Below, piece after piece: positions 8,585 through 34,412 of a stretch of 35,005 nt of DNA. Position 1 is the first letter of the stretch. Each line of letters starts with the position of its first letter. Under the pieces are notes generated by a model. The model was given only the letters and a program-made list of their open reading frames with translations. It made no database searches and was not told the DNA's origin. The position numbers were made by a program, and so were the translations under genes. The DNA comes from a virus, in IMG/VR virus record IMGVR_UViG_3300025879_000052, positions 1 through 35,005 of that record; one strand, given 5' to 3'.

Positions 8585-8688
8585 TTAAGGCATAATTAGT
8601 TCAGTGCTTGGACCCCAACTAGCAACATCCTGAACACCGGTTACTTTTAAGTTTTGACTGACAGTTTTAGCAGGTGGCGCTGCTCCTA
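8585..8688 (-). other. Open -1 frame extension of the gp14-like gene (34 codons)
   Basis: After the slip the frame reads GTA GGA GCA GCG and continues to TAA at 8585-8587. The residues begin VGAAPPAKTVSQNLKVTGV and end SWGPSTELIMP, a protein-like composition. Upstream in this frame there is a stop (TAG) and no ATG, GTG or TTG until an ATG two codons from the end, so the stretch is unlikely to be translated independently. Together with the upstream gene it would make a 271-residue protein. Most of what would otherwise be a 117-base gap is occupied by this frame. Confidence 0.55.
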
Positions 8689-9399
8689 CTTTCCCGCGAA
8701 AGCTGATCCTATACTACCAACAGCACTAATCCCACCCATTATAGCTGATGATTTCGCCGCACTAGCCTGTGCAATATCTTGCTGCGCTTGAGCAACTTTA
8801 CCAGACGCTCTATCTAAATCAGCATTAGTTCTATTTTCCCTAGTTTGAAACTCAAACTGTTTACCAGCGGCATCCGCAGCTTGAACTCTTTGTCCTTCTG
8901 ATATAGCTATGCTCTGAAGTCTTTGTTGTTCTGATATTTTTTGAGCGTTTAGAGCTTGCTCTCCTTGAGCTCTTAGCTTTTCGTTTTGAGCTTCTTGTTG
9001 TTCTATGCTAGCTGCTACACCTTTCTTAGATTGTAAAGCCGCTTGAGCTAAAGCAGTTGCTCCACCAGCTGAAGCACCTGTAGCTGCTAAGGTATCTAGA
9101 GTATTAGCTAAAGCTATATCAGCTTGCTCCATTTTTATTTCAGCCGCTTGAGTTGCAACACCTAAGTTTTCAAAAGGATTACTCATTTGACCACTCAAAT
9201 CTTTAGCCATACTACTTAGATCTTTTGTTTCGCTGTAAGGGTTTGTAATTTCTTGCCTAGACGCTTTTATAGCTTCAAGCTCTGCGTTAGCTCTAGCTTT
9301 TGCTCCTTTTGCTTTTTGCTTATCTTGATGCGCTCCGATCGCTGACGCGGCTGAACCTACCAAAGCTACACCTGCTGTTACCGCTGATACTACTGCCAT
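8686..9399 (-). CDS. Internal virion protein, T7 gp14-like (putative), 237 aa
   Basis: The first ~25 residues are hydrophobic and glycine/alanine-rich (VVSAVTAGVALVGSAASA), followed by a long Ala/Gln/Glu-rich helix. The end (IMGGISAVGSIGSAFAGK) is again hydrophobic. This pattern and the place just before two larger proteins match T7 gp14, the first ejection protein, which inserts in the outer membrane during DNA entry. The gene ends at TAG (8686-8688), directly preceded by a GGGAAAG slippery heptamer, and a -1 shift would add 34 residues (see 8585-8688). Confidence 0.7.
   Translation of the reverse strand: MAVVSAVTAGVALVGSAASAIGAHQDKQKAKGAKARANAELEAIKASRQEITNPYSETKDLSSMAKDLSGQMSNPFENLGVATQAAEIKMEQADIALANTLDTLAATGASAGGATALAQAALQSKKGVAASIEQQEAQNEKLRAQGEQALNAQKISEQQRLQSIAISEGQRVQAADAAGKQFEFQTRENRTNADLDRASGKVAQAQQDIAQASAAKSSAIMGGISAVGSIGSAFAGK
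8689..8695 (-). promoter_or_regulatory. Putative -1 frameshift site GGGAAAG
   Basis: In the zero frame the ribosome reads GCG GGA AAG TAG. The seven bases G GGA AAG fit the X XXY YYZ rule and are the same heptamer used by phage lambda genes G/T. A short hairpin (AGCAG, 6-base loop, CTGCT) begins 4 bases after it on the minus strand, but its stem is only 5 bp. Slippage by -1 would bypass the TAG and continue for 34 codons. Confidence 0.6.
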
Positions 9400-9400
9400 A

Positions 9401-9817
9401 TTAATTTATTTTTTTTGCAACCTCAAACGATGGTTTATCGTCTACGGTATATTTTAGTTCTTTAAAAGTATTTATTAACCCGCTATTTCTAGCTATGCTA
9501 AGTATTATATTATAACCACTAGCTTTAGCTACGTGCTCTATACCATTCAATAAAAGCTTTAGAGCATCTTTTCTGTCATCTTCTCTGTAATCTTTATTAG
9601 ACACAACCCATTCAGTCCATGCCACCTTAGAATTGGTCGTATACATGAAACCAGCTACTATAGCTACGTTGTTTTTCTCAACTATAAAACCACCAGTTCC
9701 ATTCTCAGGTAACAACTCCTTAGTAGGTATAGCTTTTTTCCATTCAGGCCACATTTTCCACATGTTTACCAATGTTTCCCAGTCTGATTCTTGTAATTTA
9801 CGTATATTTAATTCCAT
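9401..9817 (-). CDS. GNAT-like acetyltransferase (putative), 138 aa
   Basis: Length and layout fit a GCN5-type acetyltransferase: an N-terminal NIRKLQESDWETLVNMW, a central pair of strands (GGFIVEKNNVAIVAGFM, KVAWTEWVVSN), a helix (DDRKDALKLLLNGIEHVAK) and a late strand. The usual Q/R-x-x-G-x-G/A acetyl-CoA loop is not clear (YREDDRKDA instead), so binding may be altered or lost. Similar genes are common among marine phages beside tail and ejection genes, where the function is unproven. It lies 10 bases after the 452-residue gene. Confidence 0.6.
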   Translation of the reverse strand: MELNIRKLQESDWETLVNMWKMWPEWKKAIPTKELLPENGTGGFIVEKNNVAIVAGFMYTTNSKVAWTEWVVSNKDYREDDRKDALKLLLNGIEHVAKASGYNIILSIARNSGLINTFKELKYTVDDKPSFEVAKKIN

Positions 9818-9827
9818 TATATTTAAT

Positions 9828-11186
9828 TTAATATGAAGATTCTATATAATTAGTTGACACCGCAAATAATTCTTTAGGTCCACCAACGTTTGTAGTTTGA
9901 TCTGTCTTTATAGTTACAGTAGTAAAAAAGCCTTTTACACCAGAAATAGAATCTGAATAAACAACCTCTGCTCCTCTAGGTTGTGAGTCGTTAACAATGT
10001 TTGCGAAATACTTATTTTCTTTTCTATTGAAACCAGCTCTATACTGAACACCGCTATCTAAGTAAGCTCCTTCGTCATAACTATAAATTCGTTTGGCAAT
10101 ATCATTGTAGCTAGTACCAGTTGTGTCTGACTTAATACTTGTAACTTCCCAACCATTACTTCCTTCGTAGTTTATAGTTTTAAATACTTTAGGCATGCTT
10201 ATATTGCTATTAAAAACAAATTCAATACTAGATGTCTTCAAATCATCTTCCTCATAGAAAACACCTCTATCAGAAGTATCAGAATAGTGCTTGTATATTT
10301 TACCGTCGTAAAAGCTATAAAAGTTATTTCTTAAACTACCCATTAGAGTTGGTTTAAAACTAAAAAAACTAACCCAACCATTCACGCTGTCATCAAAGCA
10401 AAGCGTGTCATAAGTATCTGTATCACTTGTTGGGTTTGTAAATGTTTTTGTTTTTTGAATAGAAGTTACATAAACTTTATTATGAGTATCGAAAGATCCT
10501 AATACAACAGAACTACTGTTTAAGTCGTTAAAAGTATCTCTAAAGTAATCTTTCATTCCGTAATTAGATATTTCTGTTATACCGTCCATAGAAAGTCTAA
10601 GCACAGCATTTCTTCTTCTATCTGTGAAATATTTTCTATATCCATATACAGCAAAACTACCAGGGTCTTTACTTATACCATATTCTCCAGCGTACGGAAC
10701 TATTTGACCAATAACTTGTCTAGTAGAAGTTATACTACCACCGCCTTCAGCTGAGTATATAGCGTCTTTATCTATCAACGCTCTACTAACTTTGTTTTCT
10801 TGAAATAACACTAAATTAGTATCTTCAGCATATAGTTTTTGTATAGAACCTTTAGCTGGATCAACTGACTTAGTTATGTCTTCACCTACAGGAAATTGAT
10901 TCGTTCCGTTAAAACCAGTTCTTGAGTTAAACAGACCTGAGTATATAATACCGTTACCTAACGTTTGAGATTCTGCGTTGTCTTCAACTATGTGAGCTTT
11001 TACTCCGTATCCTGTTTCTACATTGTTGTAACCACCTCTAATCCTAGACTCTTCAATAAACCAATGATTAGTTGAATTTGCATTTGGACTTCCTCCCAAC
11101 CATTTTGGTGGTGTAGGGTTATTTGTGTTATCAACTAATTTGTTGAGCATAAAAGAATTAAAGTAGTTTACTTCTATTGTAGCCAT
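9828..11186 (-). CDS. Beta-propeller-like structural protein, 452 aa
   Basis: It has conserved segments KGSIQKLYAEDTNLVLFQEN, SRALIDKDAIYSAEGGG and FTDRRRNAVLRLSMDGITE. Repeating beta strands with Asp/Gly turns suggest a propeller of the type found in the tail hub or stabilisation proteins of crAss-like and marine phages. In related phages similar sequences are part of one larger protein, so this may be a split-off partner of the 1274-residue upstream gene (inference). It starts 25 bases after that gene. Confidence 0.7.
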   Translation of the reverse strand: MATIEVNYFNSFMLNKLVDNTNNPTPPKWLGGSPNANSTNHWFIEESRIRGGYNNVETGYGVKAHIVEDNAESQTLGNGIIYSGLFNSRTGFNGTNQFPVGEDITKSVDPAKGSIQKLYAEDTNLVLFQENKVSRALIDKDAIYSAEGGGSITSTRQVIGQIVPYAGEYGISKDPGSFAVYGYRKYFTDRRRNAVLRLSMDGITEISNYGMKDYFRDTFNDLNSSSVVLGSFDTHNKVYVTSIQKTKTFTNPTSDTDTYDTLCFDDSVNGWVSFFSFKPTLMGSLRNNFYSFYDGKIYKHYSDTSDRGVFYEEDDLKTSSIEFVFNSNISMPKVFKTINYEGSNGWEVTSIKSDTTGTSYNDIAKRIYSYDEGAYLDSGVQYRAGFNRKENKYFANIVNDSQPRGAEVVYSDSISGVKGFFTTVTIKTDQTTNVGGPKELFAVSTNYIESSY

Positions 11187-15042: not shown

Positions 15043-16251
15043 TTAGTGTTTTATCCATTTAGACTTACCTCTTAAAACTTGAACTATTTCATTAAGCTTA
15101 AGATTAGATAATCTTATCTTGGTGTTTCTAAGTTTAGCACTTTTCTCTCTTTTGAGTCTATTTACAATGTACTCAGGTTGATCAATTCTAGACGCTATAA
15201 TAGCGTGGCTTATATAAGCATACATAGCTTCTTCTGCTAGTTTAGGTACTCTAGTGTCTTCATCAGTAGATAAACCATCAGATATGTACTCTAATATTAT
15301 TATTTTTCCAACTAGATCCGAAGAAAAAGAAAACTTACCTTCTCTTTCATTTATAGTAAAGTAACCGTTAACATTTGCGTTTTGAGGATCTAAACCATAC
15401 AGTTGACCAGCTCCGTAAGAATTTTCACCGTAATAATAATCCCAGCTAAACTCAGTGTTGTCTATATAGTCCTTTCTATTTTTTAAGTTGTTCTCAGCCC
15501 ATCTTTCTTCCGTTATAGAAGTTCCATCGATGTTATCACCATCATTATCTTGTATAGGTATACCTTTATTGTCTTGTAATGGGTTTTCGTAAGGGTTTGT
15601 TGTTAAATTTGTAGGCATTATTACATGTTTAACACCTTGACCATCAATCCAATACAGGTTTACATAGTTAACGTAATCTTGAGGTATTATAACGCTTAAA
15701 CTATTAGGTATTGTTAATTCTTGAGAGTTTACGCTTTTTAAAGTGTCGTAGCTAAACTCTTGCATAGCTCTTTTAGCATGAAAAACAACATCAGTTCTTT
15801 TTGCACTAGTTATTAATTTTCCATCGCCAACGTAAGCAACTATAAAGTTGTTTATAATATCATTAAGTTTCGTGTAAGCGTATGATCCATAGTTTTTTTC
15901 TACAGCTTCTCCGTAAGCTTTATCATTAAAAGTAGAACCATAATTACCACCATCTATCTTTTTTAACTGTACTATTATGTAAAAACCGTCAGCGGGAGGA
16001 GTTGTTGTAAAATTTATGGTGTTACCAACAACCGTATAATTATAAGTCATTTCAGTCCAATCACCTGGTAAACCAGTGGCACTAGTATATAACTTAAAGT
16101 TGTTGCTTGCGTATTTAGCACTATTTGGATCAGAGCTGTACCATATTAAATCAGTGTTAAATGTTGTTGTAAAAGACGTGGTATTGCCATCACCTCTAAA
16201 TCCTTGAGCACCTTCATAGTACTGTCTATTGTTTTCTTTTATTAATGACAT
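15043..16251 (-). CDS. Connector-like protein B2 with N-terminal beta domain, 402 aa
   Basis: The C-terminal ~270 residues match B1 (LNDIINNFIVAYVGDGKLI, VVFHAKRAMQEFSYDTLK). The first ~120 residues are an extra, beta-rich domain (RGDGNTTSFTTTF, NYTVVGNTINFTTT) absent from B1. About residues 215-295 hold an acidic insertion with aromatic residues. The gene is separated from A2 by only 3 bases. The added domain could face outward as a tail or adsorption element (inference). Confidence 0.7.
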   Translation of the reverse strand: MSLIKENNRQYYEGAQGFRGDGNTTSFTTTFNTDLIWYSSDPNSAKYASNNFKLYTSATGLPGDWTEMTYNYTVVGNTINFTTTPPADGFYIIVQLKKIDGGNYGSTFNDKAYGEAVEKNYGSYAYTKLNDIINNFIVAYVGDGKLITSAKRTDVVFHAKRAMQEFSYDTLKSVNSQELTIPNSLSVIIPQDYVNYVNLYWIDGQGVKHVIMPTNLTTNPYENPLQDNKGIPIQDNDGDNIDGTSITEERWAENNLKNRKDYIDNTEFSWDYYYGENSYGAGQLYGLDPQNANVNGYFTINEREGKFSFSSDLVGKIIILEYISDGLSTDEDTRVPKLAEEAMYAYISHAIIASRIDQPEYIVNRLKREKSAKLRNTKIRLSNLKLNEIVQVLRGKSKWIKH

Positions 16252-16254
16252 TTA

Positions 16255-17010
16255 CTAGCTTTTTTGGTTTATTTCATTTTGCTGTATCTCAGAAGCTGCT
16301 GCTTGAACTATTTGAGGGTCTCTAACTATTATACCAGAATATAAAAGTATTTTTAAAATAACATTAACTTGTTCTGATGGGTGTAACTCTATCTGTTTAG
16401 AGCCAGAGCTATTATAAACGTATTGACCAAGACTACCGACAGAATAGTTCCAAACAACATCGTTAGGTTTTCTAATAAAATCAGCGACTACACCACTTGA
16501 TATAGTTGAAGGACTAACTGTTATCGTTTTTCTATTTGTTTCAGTCTCGTTTTCGTAGACGTAGGTAGGAAAGTTTTTAGAAGATCTAGTTAAATCTGAT
16601 CTTTGGTTTTCATAGAATTGTTTAGAAGTTAATCTCTCTATCTCGACATTTTCTCCTATATCAGGGTTATTGTAAGTTACAACACCTAATTTGTAAACAG
16701 CCGTCCCATTTGTAGAAGTTCCGTTGTAAGATACAGGTAATTTAAAAACTCCATTACCTAAACTAATGCAACTACCTCTAACCTTGAAAACAGCTATTTT
16801 CTCATCAACGTCTACAACCCTATCAGCATAACTTGCACTTGTTTGACCTACTCTAAGCTGTTGGTTTAAGTCATCAAAGTATTGCTCAAAAATATCAAGC
16901 TGTACTTGTGTAGCTGTTTTATTAAACTCATCAGGTGTCATATAGCCACGCTGTTCTTTGTTTAATATTAGTAAAACTGTTTTATATACAGTATCGACAT
17001 TTATAGCCAT
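16255..17010 (-). CDS. Connector-like protein A2, 251 aa
   Basis: Second copy of the A type; it aligns with the gene at 17617-18306 over its whole length. It differs by an insertion near residues 80-105 (CISLGNGVFKLPVSYNG) and a C-terminal ASEIQQNEINQKS. A Shine-Dalgarno-like AAGGAAAA lies about 6 bases before the ATG, one of the few in this window. It probably forms part of the same neck or tail ring as A1, with a distinct position. Confidence 0.7.
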   Translation of the reverse strand: MAINVDTVYKTVLLILNKEQRGYMTPDEFNKTATQVQLDIFEQYFDDLNQQLRVGQTSASYADRVVDVDEKIAVFKVRGSCISLGNGVFKLPVSYNGTSTNGTAVYKLGVVTYNNPDIGENVEIERLTSKQFYENQRSDLTRSSKNFPTYVYENETETNRKTITVSPSTISSGVVADFIRKPNDVVWNYSVGSLGQYVYNSSGSKQIELHPSEQVNVILKILLYSGIIVRDPQIVQAAASEIQQNEINQKS

Positions 17011-17028
17011 AATTTTCCTTGTTTTTTA

Positions 17029-17610
17029 TTAAGAAGAAAAATTAGTGAAAACTAGTCTTGATTTTGCTTTTTCTAATTTATCTGTCTTTTCTATTAATAA
17101 TCTTTGTAGTAAACCTGGGTTTGTTTTCTCTCTATTAGCAAGTATTGCATAAACAATACAAGAATACAAAGCTTCTTCTGCTAATTTTGGAATAGCAGCA
17201 GATTCATCTGTAGTTAAAGCGTTTGATAAGTACTTAACTTTGAAATAAACATTGCCAACGTTACCACTGTTTAATATGATTTGCTTATTTGTATAATCAA
17301 TAAAATATTCATCTTGAGCAGGAGGATTCACAGATGACTCAGTAAATTCCACACTGTTAGCTTGAACCGTTACCATAGCTACGTAATCTTTTGGTAAAGG
17401 GTATGTAGCTGGAGCTGTAGGCTCTTCTATTAGAAATTGACCTTTTAATGTTTCATAAGAAAACTCTTGGAGAGATCTTCTAGCGTGAAATACAACTTCG
17501 GTTCTTTTAGAGTCAGGTATTAATTTACCAGGTCCAGTGTATGAGATTATAAAGTTATTTATTATATCATTTAGAGATATAAAAGCGTTTGTTATACTTG
17601 TATCTGCCAT
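17029..17610 (-). CDS. Connector-like protein B1, 193 aa
   Basis: Paralogue of the C-terminal part of the 402-residue gene at 15043-16251. They share LNDIINNFI, GKLI and VVFHARRSLQEFSYETLK with only small changes, then a PKDYVAMV strand region and a TDESAAIPKLAEEALY helix. The pattern, a helical bundle with an inserted beta region, is like head-to-tail adaptor proteins of short-tailed phages (for example the T7 gp11 or P22 gp4 role). Role inferred from position between head and tail genes. Confidence 0.7.
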   Translation of the reverse strand: MADTSITNAFISLNDIINNFIISYTGPGKLIPDSKRTEVVFHARRSLQEFSYETLKGQFLIEEPTAPATYPLPKDYVAMVTVQANSVEFTESSVNPPAQDEYFIDYTNKQIILNSGNVGNVYFKVKYLSNALTTDESAAIPKLAEEALYSCIVYAILANREKTNPGLLQRLLIEKTDKLEKAKSRLVFTNFSS

Positions 17611-17616
17611 CTTTTA

Positions 17617-18306
17617 TTATTTTTGCCCGTCAGCGTTAATTTGTTGTTCTTTTTGCGAAGCTATAGATAAAGATAATTGATCTTTAGTCATAACACCCGC
17701 ATAACCTAACACCTTGTCTATCAATAATGGTTGATCTGATTGGTGTAACTCGAAATCAACAGAACTTATACTATTGTACACATAGTTGCCTAGATTTGGA
17801 TCTATAGTAAAACCCCATTTAGGGTCGCTAGGGTACTTAAGATAATTTACATTAATATCTCCTGTAACTGTAGTTGGATATATAGTCACCACTTTATTCT
17901 CGTATATATACACTGGATAATACTCTGTTGGAGCAGTCAGTGGTGATTGATTGGTGGTATATAGCTCGTGTTTTTGTATTCTTTGAACCTCTCTGTCTTT
18001 GTAAACAACAGACCCAAGCTCTTGAACCTGAGTAGGTAGTGTTGCCTTACCACTTGTTAAAGGTATAGATTCCTCTCTTTTAAATAAAGATATTTTTTCA
18101 TCTAACAAAGCCATTCTATCAGCATAAGCTAAAGAAGTTTGTGGCATTCTTAACAGTTGATTCAACTCGTCAAAGTACTGAGTAAAAATTTCTTGCTGTG
18201 CCTGAGCAGCTATTTTGTTAAATTCAGTAGGTGTTAAAACACCTCTTTTTTCCTGCTCTAGTATAACTAGAACGCTCTTGTATACTGAGTCTATGTTAAT
18301 TGCCAT
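17617..18306 (-). CDS. Connector-like protein A1, 229 aa
   Basis: Paralogue of the 251-residue gene at 16255-17010. Both start MAIN-D-VYK and share TP-EFNK, a Q--IF-QYFD-LNQ segment and a YADR...DEKI block. I chose the ATG at 18304-18306 because it aligns with the paralogue and lies after the hairpin; a GTG start at 18345 would add 13 residues. The chain is mixed alpha-beta with no membrane or catalytic signal. Position after the head genes suggests a head-tail connector or neck adaptor. The family name is unknown to me. Confidence 0.7.
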   Translation of the reverse strand: MAINIDSVYKSVLVILEQEKRGVLTPTEFNKIAAQAQQEIFTQYFDELNQLLRMPQTSLAYADRMALLDEKISLFKREESIPLTSGKATLPTQVQELGSVVYKDREVQRIQKHELYTTNQSPLTAPTEYYPVYIYENKVVTIYPTTVTGDINVNYLKYPSDPKWGFTIDPNLGNYVYNSISSVDFELHQSDQPLLIDKVLGYAGVMTKDQLSLSIASQKEQQINADGQK

Positions 18307-18322
18307 TTTTTTGTTTTTAAAA

Positions 18323-18351
18323 TAGCCGGTGACACTTTTTGCCACCAGCTA
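18323..18351 (-). terminator. Hairpin between head protein and connector gene A1
   Basis: An 11-base inverted repeat pairs 18323-18333 with 18341-18351 around a 7-base loop, with two possible G-U pairs. On the minus strand it is followed by TTTTAAAAAC, so it resembles a weak intrinsic terminator or a translation barrier. It overlaps an upstream in-frame GTG that would otherwise lengthen the next gene. That is one reason to place that gene's start at 18306. Confidence 0.6.
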
Positions 18352-32612: not shown

Positions 32613-32872
32613 AAAACAACAACAACATCTCTAAGTGTAATCACATAAAAAACTTGTTTGTCAATTTCTATTCTATGACCTGCGTGCATATCATAATAAA
32701 TAGAATCACCACTCTTAACACCTTTAACTAAATCACCACAATTTACAACTGTAGCTTGTTTATACCTAACATCTTGCTTTTGGCTACTTGTTAGTAATAA
32801 ACCACCTTTAGTTTTTGATATAGCCTCTTCTTTAATCTTTTCGATTAATATATTATTACCTACTGCTTTCAT
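32609..32872 (-). CDS. groES: Co-chaperonin GroES (phage-encoded, 87 aa)
   Basis: Heptameric lid partner of GroEL. The sequence starts MKAVGNNILIEKI and carries a recognisable mobile loop: ISKTKGGLLLTSS matches the GGIVLT type that docks on the GroEL apical domain. The second half has VKSGDSIYYD and ends TLRDVVVVL, like the GD-V...D strand pattern of GroES. I chose the ATG at 32870-32872. An in-frame TTG six bases upstream would give 89 residues but is less likely. The start lies inside the end of groEL (17-base overlap), and the TGA stop overlaps the next start by 4 bases (ATGA), so translation of all three genes is probably coupled. Confidence 0.92.
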   Translation of the reverse strand: MKAVGNNILIEKIKEEAISKTKGGLLLTSSQKQDVRYKQATVVNCGDLVKGVKSGDSIYYDMHAGHRIEIDKQVFYVITLRDVVVVL

Positions 32873-34412
32873 CACCAACTCTTAAGTTATTAATTACACA
32901 GTCTGTAGATAATATAGTTGTAGCAACAGATGCAGCATTTTTTAAAGCGCTTTTCGTAACTAATAAAGGATCTATAATACCTTTCTCAATCATATTAACC
33001 ATCTCTCCGGTTATAACATCAAATCCTACACCTTCTTTTTCAGAAACCTTCACGTCAACACCTGCGTTTGATAATATCTTCTTAAATGGCGCTAAAATAG
33101 CTTCTAGCAGTATCTCTTCACCTATGTTACTAGGTTTAGTTTTTAGCGATGCATCTAATAATGCGATACCACCACCAGATACAATACCTTCTTTTATAGC
33201 TGCTTTAGTTGCGCATATAGCGTCTTCAACTCTATCAGACTTTTCTTTTAACTCTATTTCAGAGTTTGCACCTACTTTTACTATAGCTACTTTACCTGAT
33301 AGTCTTGATAATCTTTTTTCCAATCTTATCACATCGCCAGGAGCTTTAGCTTCTTCCATTTGAGTTTTAACTTCTTTTATTAAGTCTAAAACTTCTTCAG
33401 ATTCAGTATCTACTTGTAATATGGTTTCATAATCACTTGTGATACTCTTTTTACATTGACCTAGTAAATTTGGACTTATAATATCTAAGTCATCACCTAA
33501 GTCTTCGTTTATTATAGTAGCGTTAGTTAAAACTGACAAATCAGATAACATATCTTTTTTATTAACTCCGTAAGTAGGAGCATCAATTACATTTACCTTG
33601 ATATTACCTTTAACTTTATTCATAGCTAAAGTCGATGTAATCTTAGGATCTAAATCACCTATAATAAGTAAAGATTTGTTGTTAGATATAACATATTCTA
33701 GCACAGACTGTATTTGTCTTATAGACTCAACTGGTGACTCTATTAATAACACTAAAGGATTTTCTAACTCAGCAACTCTTTTTTCTTTACTAGTAACGAA
33801 ATGAGAATTTGTAATACCTTTTTCGTATTGGACACCATCTACTAGTTCAAAACTAGTGTCTTCAGTGTCTGTAGGTTCCATTACTACAACCCCATTTTCG
33901 CCGGCAGCTTTAAAAGCGTCACCTATTATTTTTCCTAACTCTCTATCGTTATTGCAACTAATAGTAGCTATGTCCATTAACATATCACCGCTAACTTCTA
34001 TACTTTTGCTTTCTAAGTATTTTATTACTTTATCAACACCTGAATCAATACCGTTTTTAATAATCCTAACGTTATTGTTTTTAGATGCTTTGTAAGCTTT
34101 GTTTAAAATAGAGTGAGCTAGTACTGTAGCTGTTGTTGTTCCGTCTCCAGCTTCTTTTACAGTTTTTCTAGCAGCTTCTTTTAAAAGCGTAGCACCCATG
34201 TTTTCTACAGGATCTAATAGAGTTACTGAATCAGCAACCGTTACGCCATCTTTGGTTATAACAGGTCTACCGTTACCATCCTCTAGAATCACACATTGTC
34301 CACCAGCACCTAAAGTAGAGCTGACGGCTTTTGTTAATTTATCTATACCTTGAAATACCTTAACTTTAGCGTCATCACCAAAGCTTAGATTTTTAACAAT
34401 CTTGTCTGACAT
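32856..34412 (-). CDS. groEL: Chaperonin GroEL (phage-encoded, 518 aa)
   Basis: Group I chaperonin subunit; the family forms 14-mer double rings that fold proteins in an ATP-driven cage with GroES. The alignment is full length: an N-terminal equatorial segment with VITKDGVTVA (Asp55), the nucleotide-binding GDGTTTATV (residues 89-97), an intermediate and apical region, then RVEDA and SGGGIAL, which carry the ATPase Asp and the glycine loop. All acidic residues expected for ATP hydrolysis appear present. It is shorter than the usual ~545 residues and ends VGDESSR, with no Gly-Gly-Met tail. The order groEL-groES is the reverse of the usual bacterial operon, and the 3' end overlaps groES by 17 bases. 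Phage GroELs are known from some giant Pseudomonas phages. Here it probably helps fold capsid or tail proteins (inference). Confidence 0.97.
   Translation of the reverse strand: MSDKIVKNLSFGDDAKVKVFQGIDKLTKAVSSTLGAGGQCVILEDGNGRPVITKDGVTVADSVTLLDPVENMGATLLKEAARKTVKEAGDGTTTATVLAHSILNKAYKASKNNNVRIIKNGIDSGVDKVIKYLESKSIEVSGDMLMDIATISCNNDRELGKIIGDAFKAAGENGVVVMEPTDTEDTSFELVDGVQYEKGITNSHFVTSKEKRVAELENPLVLLIESPVESIRQIQSVLEYVISNNKSLLIIGDLDPKITSTLAMNKVKGNIKVNVIDAPTYGVNKKDMLSDLSVLTNATIINEDLGDDLDIISPNLLGQCKKSITSDYETILQVDTESEEVLDLIKEVKTQMEEAKAPGDVIRLEKRLSRLSGKVAIVKVGANSEIELKEKSDRVEDAICATKAAIKEGIVSGGGIALLDASLKTKPSNIGEEILLEAILAPFKKILSNAGVDVKVSEKEGVGFDVITGEMVNMIEKGIIDPLLVTKSALKNAASVATTILSTDCVINNLRVGDESSR

Follow-up and report, generated by a model that had tools for sequence, protein, structure and literature searches.

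A probable programmed −1 ribosomal frameshift that would extend a predicted virion protein of crAss-like phages

We identified a slippery heptamer, an open −1 frame and a downstream RNA stem-loop at the end of a predicted virion-protein gene that is shared by a number of uncultured crAss-like phages, most of them marine, and comparative sequence evidence indicates that this gene very probably undergoes programmed −1 ribosomal frameshifting. The three features expected of a frameshift site of the X XXY YYZ class, an in-register heptamer, a selected open −1 frame and an RNA structure found downstream across the set of genes, are all present. Ribosomes that slip would produce, in addition to the short protein, a longer form with a C-terminal tail. 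A first-pass annotation of the same DNA had proposed such a lambda-type −1 signal, with a short and a long form of a virion protein in a short-tailed phage, and this reading holds on the sequence evidence presented here.

The slip site and its genomic context

The window, by which we mean the whole stretch of DNA analysed, is a virus record of 35,005 bases, and its features relevant to this work are collected in Table 1. On the − strand the 237-aa gene ends with GCT TTC GCG GGA AAG TAG, where the heptamer stands directly before the TAG. Read in the −1 frame, the same letters give GGG AAA GTA..., with 34 open codons after GGG AAA and a TAA at 8587-8585, the first codon of the extension (GTA) starting on the last base of the heptamer, 8689. 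The ATG of the next gene (8568-8566) is 16 nt from the end of the extension. The slip heptamer of lambda G/GT is likewise G GGA AAG.

Table 1. Features of the window around the proposed frameshift site
Feature	Coordinates	Strand	Remarks
237-aa zero-frame gene	8686..9399	-	predicted all-helical virion (ejection/cargo) protein
Slippery heptamer G_GGA_AAG	8689..8695	-	zero-frame register; X XXY YYZ kept in 28/30 tail-bearing homologues
Zero-frame stop TAG, end of the short form	8686..8688	-	
Stem-loop AGCAG-cgccac-CTGCT, putative stimulator	8669..8684	-	4 nt 3' of the heptamer
−1-frame extension VGAAPPAKTVSQNLKVTGVQDVASWGPSTELIMP, 34 codons + TAA	8585..8688	-	homologous tails are under purifying selection
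crAss-like muzzle gene	9828..11186	-	PF25729 crAss_MUZ_C, E 1e-10; tblastn matches to Cellulophaga, Maribacter and Flavobacterium phages
138-aa gene (phrog_17252), between the muzzle and frameshift genes	9401..9817	-	syntenic with phi38:1 gp098
Next gene, 539 aa	6949..8568	-	syntenic with phi38:1 gp100 structural protein

The letters of the − strand bear out what the first-pass annotation had described at this site, namely GGGAAAG in the zero-frame register at the stop, a −1 frame open for 34 codons and closed by a TAA before the next gene, the lack of a usable start for that frame, and predicted products of 237 and 271 residues. Neither the open −1 frame upstream nor the first six tail codons contain an ATG, GTG or TTG. 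That annotation had overlooked the 5-bp stem-loop that follows immediately on the slip site. Among the 11,172 codon positions in the genes of the window, in-register GGGAAAG occurs only once, at this very site. The 34-codon extension alone proves nothing, because a −1 frame open for at least 34 codons follows 29% of all stop trinucleotides in the window, and the case therefore rests on the homologues.

Judged by its genes, the phage is crAss-like. It has a virion module of the Crassvirales type, with a crAss_MUZ_C muzzle protein and other virion genes, and several genes of the window match 'virion structural protein' PHROGs, including phrog_13704 and phrog_13977. The best named relatives of the muzzle protein belong to Maribacter, Cellulophaga, Flavobacterium and Tenacibaculum phages, with weaker matches to gut crAss-like phages, and the succession of muzzle, small, 237-aa, 539-aa and giant protein matches gp097-gp101 of Cellulophaga phi38:1, which are annotated as structural. 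Elsewhere in the window this crAss-like phage encodes a Cpn60/GroEL-type chaperonin (32856-34412, − strand; PF00118, E 3e-55), and the region 15043-18345 (− strand) contains two seemingly paralogous gene pairs, 15043-16251 with 17029-17610 (both phrog_13977) and 16255-17010 with 17617-18345, possibly a duplicated ring-protein module.

The 237-aa protein is probably an ejection (cargo) protein resembling gp14 and C1, which we infer from synteny, fold and composition. Its AlphaFold2 model is all-helical (pLDDT 80.5), and Ala/Gly-rich hydrophobic segments are found at both ends. The family profile matches phi38:1 gp099 with an E-value of 1.7e-8 against a single sequence, a remote relationship affected by compositional bias, and gp099 owes its label 'virion structural protein' only to similarity with phi18:1 gp99. 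The best Foldseek match in BFVD is a borderline one to an 'Internal virion protein [uncultured virus]' (prob 1.00, E 1.3e-3, TM 0.50), while Pfam and PHROG scans gave no Pfam match and no strong PHROG match, and sequence and fold searches of the PDB returned only coiled-coil noise. Of the earlier label 'gp14-like', the ejection role thus stands as probable, and the nearest comparison is crAss C1 and phi38:1 gp099, not T7 gp14 proper. Eight homologues (L009, L076, L159, L162, L291, L301, L305 and L401) are long, with 308-359 aa, and have the in-frame end YSFEY...GVMSDEVP...VNYSLLDVEFKQ, which recalls the S74 intramolecular chaperone (Pfam S74, E 0.05, below the cut-off).

Heptamer, stem-loop and stop codon in homologous genes

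Searches of a phage collection with the 237-aa gene, at both DNA and protein level, gave no match and hence no cultured phage with the site, and cultured relatives were compared instead by synteny through the muzzle protein. From IMG/VR and GTDB contigs (seven viral-contig scans and one genome-contig scan) we gathered 178 distinct homologous genes, which are found in three states: untailed, at a distance of about 13 nt from the next gene; longer, through a C-terminal part read in frame; or with a gap of at least 59 nt between the stop and the next ATG. The cut-off for this gap was 60 nt at first, and was lowered to 59 once L396 and L402 were seen as members of the class. The gap class comprises 32 genes. 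A tail of 15-49 codons in the −1 frame is present in 30 of them, including the gene of the window; L013 has a tail in the +1 frame instead, and L021 lacks both kinds. Frame-shifted tails are in the −1 frame in 30 of 31 genes.

An in-register X XXY YYZ heptamer lies 0-2 codons before the stop in 28 of the 30 genes with a −1 tail. It is GGGAAAG in 14 of them, GGGAAAT and AAAAAAG in four each, GGGAAAA in three, and GGGAAAC, AAAAAAC and TTTGGGG in one each, the form G GGA AAN accounting for 22 of the 28. L054 and L073 carry a −1 tail without a full heptamer, and a slip in the P site only would be needed there. The association with the gap is strong, as an in-register heptamer near the stop is present in 28/32 gap genes against 7/146 others (p 6e-22), with GGGAAAN in none of those seven, and the non-gap homologues mostly have neither intergenic space nor heptamer. 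With one gene per 75%-identity cluster the figures are 10/10 for the gap class and 3/69 for the others (p 2e-10), and at the 60-nt cut-off, in the first 151 genes, they are 22/26 and 6/125 (p 3e-17). Genes from later scans with a gap of at least 60 nt and a −1 tail, added after the rule had been noticed, have the heptamer in four cases out of four. The conservation of GGGAAAG and of the −1 extension among relatives, on which the first-pass annotation had made its reading depend, is thus found in 30 genes for the tail and 28 for a heptamer. Other relatives lack both, and one (L268) has its tail in frame, as would be expected if the two arrangements interchange; this distribution favours a programmed shift.

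A putative stimulator of slipping, the stem-loop, is also found in most genes of the set. Scanning with 24-nt windows gave a folding-energy trough directly past the slip site, with a mean of −6.4 kcal/mol at +2 and about −0.7 beyond. In a fixed 27-nt window the mean MFE is −6.4 kcal/mol, against −4.4 in dinucleotide shuffles (0/500 as low) and −3.4 in synonymous re-codings of the −1 frame (0/500), and no fold excess past the stop was detected in the 148 homologues without a −1 tail. Folding of 70 nt downstream diluted this hairpin signal, which short windows revealed. Uninterrupted strong stems are present in 15/30 frameshift genes, 0/148 controls and at most 6 in shuffles, the stem-loop being weak, interrupted or absent in about one third of the frameshift genes, and the stem mostly starts 3-9 nt past the heptamer. 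Four related genes, with cores 75-87% identical, have differing stems in which the pairing is kept (GGGGC-gagg-GCCCC, GGCA-gtgg-TGCC, GCCG-gggg-CGGC and GTGCCG-gagg-CGGCGC). Inspection by eye of the upstream 30-mers revealed no consistent Shine-Dalgarno-like motif that could act as an upstream stimulator. Also by eye, a pattern RGGC-N(10-15)-UAAG(N)CC was seen after the stop in L014, L019, L022, L024, L050, L051, L054, L073, L484 and L501, and it may represent a longer-looped or bulged hairpin, unlike the tetraloop stems of the others.

The choice of stop codon differs as well. The zero-frame stop is TAG in 22/30 frameshift genes versus 15/146 other homologues (p 4e-12), in which TAA is the stop in 126/146, and the −1 frame is closed by TAA in 29/30 frameshift genes. 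As a slower terminator beside the slip site, TAG would favour slipping; alternatively, the bias could reflect that Gly or Ala is preferred at the second position of the tail, where the codon starts with the G of TAG.

Three other modes of decoding or synthesis bear on these gene ends. Stop readthrough was considered and rejected, the zero frame usually closing a few codons past the stop (at most 33). Transcriptional slippage is not needed for GGGAAAG, and is possible in principle at the A runs of L019, L051, L396, L402 and L499. The 39-codon +1-frame tail of L013 (and L015) follows GCC TTT GGG TAA, where GGG could re-pair on GGT, and is possibly reached by a +1 frameshift at the stop codon, as in prfB-type sites.

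Selection and exchange of the tails

The substitutions show the tails to be under purifying selection in the −1 frame. When seven related pairs are pooled, 64 of 134 substitutions fall on third codon positions of the −1 frame (p 4e-4), and dN/dS is 0.09-0.61 in six of the seven, with the proviso that the alignment of gapped pairs as proteins of the −1 frame slightly favours this result. The remaining pair, L019/L051, shows no purifying selection, with a dN/dS of 1.5 based on six substitutions only.

Comparison of tails and cores further indicates that the tails are modular and are swapped between lineages as units. L056 and L066 have cores that are 87% identical and the same slip site, with unrelated tails, and L022 and L073 have tails that are 85% identical on cores that are 53% identical. 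The −1 tail of L273, which follows CCG GGA AAG TAA, is found in frame and colinear in its sister L268 (E 2.7e-6). Certain tail ends, such as YKPNDTVGFY and FKVTNPLF, are common to several lineages. T, G, S, P and N abound in the tails, which are probably flexible given this composition and their placement after a hydrophobic segment; the AlphaFold model of an in-frame-tailed relative, in which the tail is coil, is poor (pLDDT 58) and says little about it. On a FastTree tree of the homologues, in which L396 and L402 were still scored as untailed, the frameshift state changes 16 times, at least ten of these changes being forced by well-supported branches. By this reconstruction the state has switched repeatedly, through gains and losses that the tree does not distinguish.

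These observations allow other explanations of the arrangement to be weighed. The shift might serve translational coupling, carrying ribosomes across the spacer to the next start with a tail sequence that is incidental, and the distance from the −1 stop to the next ATG (median 13 nt), which is the usual gene spacing (p 0.97), would suit this. We nevertheless regard coupling as improbable, since the tails show amino-acid conservation in the −1 frame, they move between lineages as units and one of them is fused in frame, and a spacer without a role could be deleted, as it is in about 146 relatives.

It is very unlikely that the tail is a free peptide, made from a separate small gene or by termination and reinitiation. 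The size of the tails would be compatible with this, and an ATG is present in the open −1 frame in 6/30 genes, mostly at least 18 codons upstream; against it, from the opening of the −1 frame to the sixth tail codon there is no ATG in 24/30 genes and no ATG, GTG or TTG in 19/30, the slip site is in every case the point from which the −1-frame tail starts, and there is the relative with an in-frame fusion. We give just as little credence to decay, in which a nonsense or frameshift mutation would have cut off an in-frame tail and left the slippery look as a relic. In-frame tails are indeed common in the family, and L054 and L073 have tails without a canonical heptamer, but the −1 frame is open in 30/30 genes, its tails are under purifying selection, the heptamer recurs in ten or more distinct parts of the tree, and the stem-loop excess extends across the set.

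Least credible is a sequencing or assembly error, a one-base indel splitting a continuous gene, which the in-frame copy of the L273 tail in L268 and the many relatives with in-frame tails of other sequence might suggest, but which the homologues refute for the gene set as a whole, since 30 genes from many metagenomes share the place and the direction of the break, which in nearly all of them coincides with a rare in-register heptamer that, as GGGAAAG, is not a long homopolymer, and with a stem-loop after the break, whereas random errors would scatter in both directions. The caution of the first-pass annotation on this point is thereby answered for the set. At the end of one further homologue, L286, a run of seven A is found at which a −1 slip would give ...VEFKQI, an end that is in frame in relatives, and this run may reflect frameshifting, mutation or misassembly.

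Proposed mechanism and relation to known systems

Programmed frameshifting would proceed as follows. Ribosomes would reach G GGA AAG (or, in relatives, G GGA AAN, A AAA AAG/C or T TTG GGG) and pause there, while a stop codon occupies the A site or lies close to it and the stem-loop is about 3-9 nt downstream. The majority would terminate and give the short form, whereas a minority would slip by −1, bypass the stop and add a T/G/S/P/N-rich tail of 15-49 residues, terminating, nearly always at TAA, a short distance ahead of the next gene. It would thus follow directly on the hydrophobic, Gly/Ala-rich segment at the C-terminus of the predicted all-helical protein, which probably leaves the virion together with the DNA and would correspond to T7 gp14 and, in its gene position, to crAss001 C1. 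Substoichiometric subunits with the tail might then provide a docking peptide in the assembly of cargo, portal and tail, and the slip site would be the joint at which tails are exchanged. We offer as a tentative reading, for which the chances are somewhat below even, that the frameshift acts as a stoichiometry switch on an ejection-channel protein, giving a docking tail to a few subunits of a ring, and that the slip site serves as a cassette joint, so that tails may move between a state in which some copies carry them (frameshift) and one in which all copies do (in frame).

In lambda G/GT, a −1 shift near the gene end gives a low-frequency long form (PMC5009743), and the 237-aa gene resembles it in both respects as well as in the heptamer. 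However, gpG and gpGT are assembly chaperones of long-tailed phages that are absent from the virion, with the T part binding the tail tube (PMC5009743), whereas the present phage is short-tailed and the gene product a putative virion protein, the added tail is exchangeable and of 15-49 residues, and the zero-frame stop lies 0-2 codons past the slip site. G/GT chaperone genes lie upstream of the tape measure gene in long-tailed phages, and the neighbours found here are muzzle and cargo genes of a crAss-like podovirus, so that the 237-aa gene is not assigned to the chaperone class. The closest known kind, by mechanism and logic, are the frameshift-extended structural proteins of T7/T3 (10A/10B), Lactobacillus A2 and Listeria A118/A500/PSA, made in short and long forms (PMC5009743). 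The proteins of the T7/T3 10B, A2 and PSA kind form the coat or the tail tube, and their extensions are often Ig-like, whereas the crAss-like protein is putatively internal, is probably ejected and has short, unrelated and exchangeable tails.

Among crAss-like phages, C1 (gp45) and C2 (gp46) of phiCrAss001 are encoded after the muzzle gene, are packed in capsid and tail, and are proposed to form an ejection channel, and fragments of C1, in 12 copies, bind the portal and the tail barrel (PMC10172136). The present gene is like C1 in its position right after the muzzle, but C1 has 90.8 kDa against about 25 kDa for the protein of the window, and the likeness is one of position. The crAss001 paper makes no mention of frameshifting (PMC10172136). 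Cellulophaga phi38:1 gp099, Flavobacterium elemo gp20 and Maribacter Panino 0072 have a similar length and a like position in the gene order, after the muzzle and a small protein and before a protein of 450-550 aa and a giant one. They differ in that the next gene adjoins or overlaps and there is no frameshift tail, and the frameshift arrangement was found in none of the cultured relatives examined. In the open-access literature we found no report of frameshifting in an ejection protein or in crAss-like phages. The extension of structural proteins at the C-terminus by frameshifting is therefore known; its occurrence in a putative ejection protein, and in crAss-like phages, appears to be new.

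Most known cases of frameshifting in phage structural genes concern tail assembly chaperones, coat proteins and tail-tube proteins. Current annotations of the phages described here miss the C-terminus of a virion protein, and proteomics built on them cannot detect the tail. The repeated gain or loss of the frameshift state, together with the tail swaps, provide a series of natural experiments on the origin of slip sites, and the same series bears on the question of why only some subunits of a ring would carry a tail.
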